Positions 53,650 through 56,118 of a stretch of 64,000 bases of DNA are shown piece by piece. The translations under genes and the position numbers were made by a program. Origin of the DNA: Pseudanabaena sp. UWO311 (GTDB taxonomy: Bacteria; Cyanobacteriota; Cyanobacteriia; Pseudanabaenales; Pseudanabaenaceae); assembly GCF_006937785.1 (NCBI RefSeq), contig NZ_SJEE01000011.1, positions 1-64,000 on the forward strand, in the 5' to 3' direction. The notes under the pieces were generated by a model, which worked only from the letters and a program-made list of their open reading frames with translations, had not been told where the DNA came from and did not search any database. The first letter of the stretch is position 1. Each line of letters begins with the position of its first letter.

Positions 53650-53687
53650 AGTATCCTATAGTCCACTTCAGTGGACTATAGGATACT
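53650..53687. repeat. 17-bp perfect hairpin
   Basis: agtatcctatagtccac-ttca-gtggactataggatact. Confidence 0.85.
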
Positions 53688-53760
53688 TTAAGCACTTGAG
53701 CACTTGGGTCGTAGAAATGGGATTGTAAATTAATTAATAGTGAACAGTAATGCTTATCCG

Positions 53761-56118
53761 CTATTGCTCACAAGCTGCAATGCGAGCGAAGAAGTCACCA
53801 TCTCCCCTACGTCCGTCTTTTCCAGACATCGGGAGATATCCCTTTACACACATGAGATTGTTCTTAGCTAAGAAAGCTTTGTCGTATTCTACCCACTTAC
53901 CCTCATTCTTCCATGCTACGCGATCGCAAAATTTATCCCAAGTTTCAGAACTTGGCAAACTAAAATCTAGAATACCACCACACTCGACATAAATATCCTT
54001 CTGGACACTAAAGCCGTACAACCCATTGCTATATTCTATCCATAGATGATTAATTGCTAATAGCTCATCACAAGGGAACTCTTTTAAATCTTTATCGCTA
54101 AACAATTGCCCCAAATCCTTGCCCACAGACGTAATCAACAAGCGTTGGGTTTCCTGATCTGCCTCATACCATTTCTTGCTTTTGAGATTTTCTTCTAATT
54201 TTAGATAGCGCGACTTGGTAACAGATCGCTTAACTTTTTCCAGTGCTTTCTGATCTGGAATTGATAAATTTAATCGCTTCTCAAACTGTTTATAGATGAG
54301 ATAAGCGAGATCATTGTGCTTTTGATTAAGAGCTTCTTGGATTAGTTTTGTAGGATTAACCATCGCCCCATAAAACAAGATCACATCTTGCCATGCACTA
54401 ATTGACAAACACTTGTAGAGCAGCTTTTCACCTTCTTCTCGCAACCATACCAGTTCGCAAGCTGCTAGAAATTCTTGAAAACTGAGATGGGCAAACTGAT
54501 AAACATCATGGGTATATCCATCCTTTTTCACTAACAACTCACTGACATCTTCGGATTGCTTCAAAAACTCTTGAGCTGAGACATCAGGATCGATTTTTTG
54601 CAGTGCGGTCTTAATGTAATCTAATAACTCATCCTTAGGAATTTGTTTAAATCCTTCCTTCTCAAAGTCTTCTAGGATTATCGATAAATCCTGTTCAACA
54701 AATGATTTCGTTCCGCCACACATCATTTCTAAAGCCACAAATTGCAATACTTCCTGACGCTGATTAATAGAATTGAGAACTAAAAAGACACCTCTAGCAC
54801 TTGCTCGTCTCCCTAACTGCAACTCGCAAATGCCTTGATATAACTCCACCTTGCGCTGTGGTAACTCCGCCCCCTGCTTATTATCTCTATGAAACCTTGC
54901 CATCATATTCAATAGCAACGCATTACCCGCAAGATCCTTCAGTTCTGGACGAGCATCAATTTGTTCTAATAACTTCTGTGCCTTTTCCTTTGCTTTAGCT
55001 TCCACATCAGGCGTATTCCGTCCACCCCTCGCATAGCGCTCCTGACAGAGATACCACTGCTCCACAAACTGTTTGCGCTGCTCTGGATTAAAATCCTGAA
55101 TCCAAAAACTCGCTGTTGGTCTTTTTGCTATGTAGTCCTCAGTGTATGCAGTAGGGCGCGATGTCAAAATAAATACAGATTCGGGATATTGGCGCATTTC
55201 ATCACTCAGCCAATTGCTCAACTTTGCCCGTTCCGCAGGTGGCACTTCATCAAAACCGTCAAACATGACCAAAGCATCACCACGCCTAAGAATATTCAGC
55301 GCCCAATTATTCGGCACAGGATCAAGAGGTTTTATCTTCGTCAATCTGCCAATGTGATAGTCAGTCAGGAGTTCGGGCAAATTGGGAGGATTTTCTTTAG
55401 TGATTTCTTTCCAGCAACCTCCCAAAATCAATAAAAAGGGAATTAAAGTCGGTACTTTGTATTTTTTATAACTTCCCTTGCAATATTCCTGTCTGCTGTA
55501 GATATAGGCAAGATGCTTTAACAGTGTTGATTTACCATAGCCGCCCCATGCCCTAATCGCGATTTGTCGCAGGCGATTATCTTCTCTTACCCGTTCTAGC
55601 AATTGCCAGATTTGCAGTTGTTCGCAGGCTTCAGTGCGATCGCGAAATTCATAATCTCTAGTCAACGAGTCAGCGCTCAATTCTAAAGGGACAAACACCT
55701 CCCGCAACAAAGGACTATTCACTGGTAGATCGTCTTCTTCGCGCATTCCCACCACATTATCCTCATGGCAGTCCCACTCTTGACACTTGAGATATTTCTC
55801 CGTAAATCCTAGCGATCGCCAAGATGCCGTTACATTTTCGCCAAGTTGTTCTATACCCTGATTTAAAGACTCTCCTAAATCTTTAGATCGCTTTTTATTT
55901 CCTTCATGAATTGGTTGAAGCAATGCCGCGCCATAGGATATACCCGCACCAATTACCGCCGATGCGATCGCCTTGGGAATATCGCTCACTATAAATAGTT
56001 GCCAAACTGCACCAATCCCACCGCCAGCAATGCCGCCAGTCTTGATCGTTTTCAAAACAATATCGGTGATCTGCTCTTCGATAGATAGCTTTGGTTTCGG
56101 TTCTGGTTCTTGAGTCAT
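53761..56118 (-). CDS. NACHT-domain STAND NTPase with C-terminal GUN4 domain
   Basis: Walker A AWGGYGKSTLLKHLA; Walker B region ALVMFDGFDEVPPAER...FILTSRP; C-terminal WYEADQETQRLL...FPCDELLAINHLWIEYSNGLYGFSVQKDIY...WDKFCDRVAWKNEGKWVEYDKAFL...GYLP matches the GUN4 pattern; start placed at MTQEPEP. Confidence 0.88.
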   Translation of the reverse strand: MTQEPEPKPKLSIEEQITDIVLKTIKTGGIAGGGIGAVWQLFIVSDIPKAIASAVIGAGISYGAALLQPIHEGNKKRSKDLGESLNQGIEQLGENVTASWRSLGFTEKYLKCQEWDCHEDNVVGMREEDDLPVNSPLLREVFVPLELSADSLTRDYEFRDRTEACEQLQIWQLLERVREDNRLRQIAIRAWGGYGKSTLLKHLAYIYSRQEYCKGSYKKYKVPTLIPFLLILGGCWKEITKENPPNLPELLTDYHIGRLTKIKPLDPVPNNWALNILRRGDALVMFDGFDEVPPAERAKLSNWLSDEMRQYPESVFILTSRPTAYTEDYIAKRPTASFWIQDFNPEQRKQFVEQWYLCQERYARGGRNTPDVEAKAKEKAQKLLEQIDARPELKDLAGNALLLNMMARFHRDNKQGAELPQRKVELYQGICELQLGRRASARGVFLVLNSINQRQEVLQFVALEMMCGGTKSFVEQDLSIILEDFEKEGFKQIPKDELLDYIKTALQKIDPDVSAQEFLKQSEDVSELLVKKDGYTHDVYQFAHLSFQEFLAACELVWLREEGEKLLYKCLSISAWQDVILFYGAMVNPTKLIQEALNQKHNDLAYLIYKQFEKRLNLSIPDQKALEKVKRSVTKSRYLKLEENLKSKKWYEADQETQRLLITSVGKDLGQLFSDKDLKEFPCDELLAINHLWIEYSNGLYGFSVQKDIYVECGGILDFSLPSSETWDKFCDRVAWKNEGKWVEYDKAFLAKNNLMCVKGYLPMSGKDGRRGDGDFFARIAACEQ

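Follow-up and report, generated by a model that had tools for sequence, protein, structure and literature searches.

The window, that is, the whole 64,000-nucleotide stretch of Pseudanabaena sp. UWO311 DNA analyzed here, carries a gene whose product joins a NACHT domain to a C-terminal GUN4 domain (Table 1). Both domains, proposed in a preliminary description made from the sequence, were confirmed by profile searches, in which each exceeds its curated Pfam cut-off (NACHT, E 4e-11, 43.4 bits against 26.7; GUN4, E 5e-30, 104.9 bits against 29.2). The NACHT motifs of the open reading frame comprise a Walker A (GGYGKST), a Walker B (DGFDE) and a TSRP motif, with motif residues that are invariant in the alignment of homologues, while the C-terminus has Synechocystis and other GUN4 chains (1z3x, 1y6i) as its PDB sequence relatives (E ~4e-9). 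An AlphaFold model built from 55 family members reaches a mean pLDDT of 79, with most of the GUN4 region at 82–93, and its best Foldseek matches are NLRC4 (4kxf, E 8e-13), NOD2 and NLRP3; the NLRC4_HD2 match in the region between the two domains falls below the Pfam cut-off (E 0.001). The NLR-like STAND layout that had been suggested for this protein is borne out by these profile, model and structural matches, which support its description as an NLR-type STAND/NACHT switch with GUN4 in the position of the C-terminal sensor. The hydrophobic N-terminal stretch that had also been pointed out is present, and the first 100 residues, rich in glycine and hydrophobic, are poorly conserved and modeled with low confidence; residues 13–95 are possibly a membrane or effector segment.

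Table 1. Features of the NACHT-GUN4 gene and of its 3′ end in the window
Feature	Coordinates	Strand	Basis or remark
NACHT-GUN4 open reading frame, 785 aa	53761..56118	(-)	start ATG at 56118, stop at 53761
N-terminal glycine-rich hydrophobic region, residues 13-95	55834..56082	(-)	low conservation, hydrophobicity; AlphaFold pLDDT mostly <60
NACHT domain, residues 192-355	55054..55545	(-)	Pfam, invariant residues, Foldseek
Winged-helix/HD2-like helical region, residues 356-633	54220..55053	(-)	weak NLRC4_HD2 match; Foldseek to NLRC4, NOD2
GUN4 domain, residues 634-766	53821..54219	(-)	Pfam; PDB sequence matches
GYLP, 5′ border of variable region (GGACACCTCCC-type in relatives)	53830..53841	(-)	
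Variable region of the window copy, 36 nt, 12 codons after GYLP	53794..53829	(-)	similar only to the corresponding region of L075
Decayed 3′ element (TTCTTCGCTCGCATTGCAGCTTGTGAGCAATAG...TTTCTACGAC), distal half lost	53708..53793	(-)	alignment with L070, L075

Homologues of the window protein were found at E 1e-20 in 189 of the 390 cyanobacterial genomes searched (one per species), many of them aligning end to end. The recovery of 60 full-length homologues, which were extracted with up to 8 kb of flanking sequence and aligned with the window protein, establishes the NACHT-GUN4 architecture as a real family. Further relatives have the NACHT part in common and longer C-termini, and three of the ones checked also end in GUN4. 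The genome of origin encodes a second NACHT-GUN4 protein (contig C47, 68% identical to the window protein) together with a canonical gun4 (L001), kinase-GUN4 genes and further GUN4 pieces. In another genome, a NACHT-GUN4 gene (L058, G023:C57) is approximately 50% identical to that of the window, yet it is flanked by the same Uma2, SDR and histidine-kinase genes; the two are divergent alleles at one locus.

The window gene is adjoined by toxin-antitoxin-like genes and a Uma2 gene, and ribosomal protein S6 (assigned by sequence) and other ordinary genes lie close by. The preliminary description had seen this neighborhood as fitting a defense or abortive-infection island, a reading that is not supported as a general context. 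The toxin-antitoxin pairs, like most of the Uma2 genes, are found again chiefly in Pseudanabaena relatives, and a survey of the surroundings of 50 homologues found the 84 nearest neighbors no richer in PADLOC matches (E 1e-10) than 85 genes located 7–9 kb away. The PADLOC NACHT models returned no match to the window protein. A match to PADLOC PD-T4-6 (PDLC04062) was dismissed as evidence of defense because it covers only the GUN4 part of the model; since the C-terminal part of PDLC04062 matches GUN4, cyanobacterial GUN4 proteins may be miscalled as PD-T4-6. The defense-island argument for NACHT-GUN4 is weak, and an immune role would be suggested by the architecture and by analogy with diversified NACHT sensors (PMC10907252).

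All the GUN4 landmarks named in the preliminary description are present, and the last of them, GYLP (GHLP in relatives), is the exact point at which conservation stops. Beyond it the protein sequences of the family cannot be aligned, whereas the DNA farther 3′ is strongly conserved. The variable region so delimited, which sits where canonical GUN4 has its LxNxLR loop, is bounded by the GHLP codons (5′ border GGACACCTCCC) and by TCTCTTCTC on the side of the conserved 3′ element. Across 177 clean NACHT-, kinase- and AAA-linked GUN4 genes, its length ranges from 14 to 344 nt (median 56) and its base composition (G 37.5%, T 32%, A 19%, C 12%) is nearly equal at the three codon positions; neighboring coding DNA has A 30%, G 27%, T 25% and C 18%. 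Only 5 of these 177 variable regions contain an in-frame stop, whereas 97 and 95 have one in the two remaining frames and approximately 100 would be expected, a scarcity indicating that the tail is translated and that selection maintains its open frame. The residues of the tail itself are unconstrained, with none conserved. A telomerase-like repeat template was considered as a source and rejected: no repeat dominates, although GGG/TTT runs and certain G/T hexamers are mildly overrepresented.

The borders of the variable region are sharp to the base. Sister genes with 82–93% identical upstream DNA, such as several genes in one Dolichospermum locus (L183) and the Pseudanabaena pair L070 and L205, agree at almost every base as far as GHLP and again once the element begins, with no match in between, and the similarity of variable regions in sister pairs mostly equals that of random pairs. 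Unrelated variable regions were also seen where the flanks of sister genes exceed 90% identity. One pair with 98% identical upstream DNA (L150/L152) retains the same variable region, which implies that turnover is not fast and either proceeds over the time in which species diverge or is episodic. Internal copies of the 5′ border are clear by eye in L057, L053 and L158. Tandem arrangements also occur: in L154, each of the three GUN4 copies is followed by a separate variable region and element; in L262, the first variable region and element are followed by another such pair; and L183 is likewise tandem. Searches for a donor found none. Within the same locus, match lengths were as in shuffled sequences (146 cases, with one 19-nt match in L171), three long variable regions matched only themselves in their own whole genomes, and long variable regions had no match among phages. 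Pfam returned nothing significant for the peptides encoded by three long variable regions. The peptide FEFAHSSFKEFFTAMEA, encoded by the long variable region at L052:3610-3751, looks similar on inspection to the NACHT FAHLSFQEFLAA motif and has no Pfam match; this region could represent a capture of foreign gene DNA.

The element that follows spans approximately 125 nt and runs beyond the stop codon. It starts with (T)CTCTTCTCTCGC, continues through ..AGACTTGTRAACTGTAACATATAA.. and ends near TTACCTGGCAC; its start is CT-rich, it supplies stops in three frames and it forms an imperfect palindrome. Outside a variable core, most positions from -1 to +29 are more than 95% conserved in 192 copies. 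Among 57 NACHT-GUN4 copies the element is entered in the three reading frames 25, 18 and 14 times, and the conservation is at nucleotide level in all three. The stops lie at +21, +28 and +35, one per frame, and all three frames are stopped within 45 nt in 141 of 191 elements, compared with 12% in shuffles. The palindrome, which contains a GTAR tetranucleotide, pairs at 57% of positions against 13–37% when slid, with modest covariation, and a copy of the element's distal motif on the far side is seen in L068 only.

The element was found in 128 of the 390 cyanobacterial genomes, with a single match for a reversed-pattern control, and all named genomes with the element, among the matches listed, are cyanobacterial; Fischerella sp. 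PCC 9431 is one of the strains that carry it. It lies at the 3′ end of a GUN4 gene in 193 of 204 non-redundant copies, and most exceptions are contig ends. Its hosts are NACHT-, kinase- and other GUN4 genes, and two plasmid copies terminate AAA_35-GUN4 genes. No copy was found in the viral contigs scanned, and an Rfam search of five element loci returned no family for it. Copies with no GUN4 upstream are rare (L219:1215-1239, L157:1501-1525, L151:1501-1525), and in L151 the element is preceded by a short G/T-rich segment that directly continues a truncated kinase gene.

Clustering of the neighboring open reading frames yielded one recurrent family besides GUN4 genes and ordinary large families, a Y1 (HUH) transposase (PF01797); Y1_Tnp is also the commonest Pfam family among the nearest neighbors of NACHT-GUN4 homologues. 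The transposase gene is present in 51 of 157 element loci, and in all 55 element-transposase pairs it lies downstream of the element and convergent with it, mostly within 300 nt. Full-length transposases are 67–95% identical to the reference across cyanobacterial orders, and their motifs SNH[VI]H (HUH) and LRYIH-N (Tyr, Asn) are invariant or nearly so. The transposase model (pLDDT 67, a moderate confidence) has its best structural match in the REP-bound RAYT 4er8, and the scores against the NCBIfam RAYT family NF047646 (68.8 and 70.1 bits) fall below its cut-off of 80. Counting the transposase as present at 60% identity or above, the element occurs in 55 of the 65 genomes that have it and in 73 of the 325 that do not, so that many element-bearing genomes contain no transposase at that identity; the p value of 2e-21 overstates independence, since the loci share ancestry. 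TnpAREP enzymes cut single-stranded DNA at CT, remain attached to the 5′ end and accept any 3′-OH (PMC8266576), a chemistry that a CT-rich element start beside a random segment would fit. Intact units comprising a NACHT-GUN4 gene, a variable region, an element and a full-length Y1 transposase are found in L094 (G345), L045 (G124), L068 (G276), L086 (G317) and others. Another cyanobacterial family with small genomes (f2; G067, G132, G241 and others) has several copies of a related Y1 transposase (~48% identity) per genome and no element, and constitutes a comparison set free of the GUN4 cassette.

In the window itself, the element pattern has no match at 3 mismatches, and the genome of origin encodes no close Y1 transposase at E 1e-30. 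Read together with the decayed remnant listed in Table 1, the window copy is an inactive descendant, or relic, of the cassette. Positions 53764-54018 of the window are close to the gene at L075:8037-10322, with 73% identity over the second half of GUN4 and 64% over the tail, against 16–47% elsewhere, and this difference indicates that the 3′ module was exchanged by recombination. A perfect 18-bp inverted repeat, AGTATCCTATAGTCCACT..AGTGGACTATAGGATACT, at window positions 53650-53687, just past the point where the distal half of the element is lost, may be a terminator or another repeat.

We consider it probable that these proteins are NLR-type switches with a cassette-diversified GUN4 tail, and propose the RAYT-like transposase as the diversifier. 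In such a switch the N-terminus would be the likely output, NACHT the ATP-driven oligomerizing core and the C-terminal GUN4 the sensor, and in the window protein and other multidomain cyanobacterial GUN4 proteins a diversified C-terminal tail stands in place of the loop that closes the GUN4 pocket. The cassette proposed to drive this tail consists of the 5′ border GGACACCTCCC (GHLP), a random-length G/T-rich variable region and the ~125-nt element. The HUH transposase would introduce nicks into single-stranded DNA at CT sites within or close to the element and join unrelated single-stranded DNA, generating a new tail per event; selection would retain the read-through tails, and an NLR-like or kinase output would thereby acquire a diversified surface for sensing. 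The observations above show the architecture, the cassette with its sharp borders and its use of three frames, the selection for read-through and the linkage to the transposase; the part of the transposase in producing the variation, the route by which it may do so and the role of the tail in deciding specificity are parts of the proposal that we infer.

The tail may also be viewed as incidental, with GUN4 acting as a tetrapyrrole sensor in which porphyrin or bilin toggles NACHT on or off, a trigger along the lines of that suggested in the preliminary description. The GUN4 fold is intact in these proteins, and GUN4 fusions have been proposed as sensors of photosynthesis status (PMC7159879). 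In Synechocystis GUN4, it is the LxNxLR loop after GHLP that contacts the bilin (PMC10156173); the window protein reads GYLPMSGKDGRRG in this region, with Gly at the position of Asn211, and the loop is gone in nearly all homologues, with Asn at this position in 1 of 58; bilin sensing by NACHT-GUN4 proteins is therefore unlikely. At two pocket positions, the window protein keeps Phe196 and has Tyr in place of Trp192, and neither W192 nor F196 is kept across the family. Chlamydomonas GUN4 N219G loses bilin binding and keeps porphyrin binding (PMC10156173), so porphyrin could still be bound. The proposed trigger is weakened by the absence of the bilin-binding loop. A fixed ligand would, moreover, leave a hypervariable segment at the mouth of the pocket unexplained, and we regard a tetrapyrrole switch with an incidental tail as rather improbable.

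If, alternatively, a RAYT-type element simply preferred GUN4 3′ ends, inserting there and leaving filler DNA that the protein does not use, the tail would be a non-functional scar. The location of transposase and element at the very 3′ end, the absence of conserved residues in the tails and the frequent truncation of the transposase would all follow, but the strong depletion of in-frame stops would not. Nor would the sister genes, whose variable regions differ while the element is kept, indicating that events recur at occupied sites; a scar is on balance unlikely. Variation could also be produced by a classical diversity-generating retroelement (DGR) or by gene conversion from silent cassettes, and in other bacteria DGRs do vary the sensors at the C-termini of NACHT proteins (PMC10907252). 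The segments described here, however, vary in length and share no sequence, no reverse transcriptase recurs near the elements, the one reverse transcriptase of the genome of origin is retron-like by inspection and lies away from the locus, and the donor searches described above found no copies. With neither the pairing of reverse transcriptase and template repeat nor the fixed-length variable repeat that define a DGR, this origin is very improbable.

The known examples of targeted protein diversification in bacteria come mainly from reverse-transcriptase DGRs, phase variation and cassette conversion. Against this background, we tentatively advance, as a serious possibility rather than an expectation, that in cyanobacteria a transposase inserts random stretches of DNA, of random length, at the 3′ ends of sensor genes, independently of reverse transcription, yielding a combinatorial C-terminal recognition loop on NLR-like and kinase proteins. 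An HUH transposase tied to random-length variation at the binding face of a sensor would, if confirmed, constitute a new diversification route, comparable in purpose to that of DGR-diversified NACHT sensors and, likewise in purpose, a bacterial analogue of the junctional diversity of antigen receptors. It would also explain the presence of GUN4, a tetrapyrrole-binding fold, on so many cyanobacterial signaling and conflict proteins. The benefit of RAYT enzymes to their hosts is an open question (PMC6006769), and enzymes of this type would gain a testable host function.

Relative to known systems, the NACHT-GUN4 proteins share with the anti-phage bNACHT STAND NTPases the tripartite layout, with a central NACHT, a C-terminal sensor and an NLRC4/NOD2-like fold; they differ in having a GUN4 sensor with a hypervariable tail and no recognised nuclease effector. 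With the DGR-diversified NACHT/CLec sensors (PMC10907252) they have in common a C-terminal segment of a NACHT protein that is diversified at a defined site, but the cassette has a variable region of variable length, lacks a reverse transcriptase and template repeat, has GUN4 in place of the C-type lectin and is linked to a Y1 transposase. RAYT/TnpAREP enzymes and their REPs (PMC8266576, PMC6006769) resemble the mobile components in the HUH-Y1 protein, with 4er8 as the closest structure, beside an imperfect palindrome with GTAR and a CT-rich flank; REPs, however, are many, dispersed and intergenic, whereas the element is present in 1–6 copies per genome, nearly all at the ends of GUN4 genes. 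Canonical GUN4, the Mg-chelatase cofactor, shares the core fold and is encoded separately in the same genome, the NACHT-GUN4 family differing from it in the replaced LxNxLR loop and in the fusion of GUN4 to NACHT, kinase or AAA domains. GUN4 fused to kinases, caspases, TIR and other components has been reported in cyanobacterial conflict systems (PMC7159879, PMC8195603), and the available parts of those two reports do not describe the hypervariable tail, the element or the transposase. Across the literature compared, which comprised no preprints and few subscription papers, this suggests that the cassette is a previously undescribed form of sensor diversification free of reverse transcriptase.
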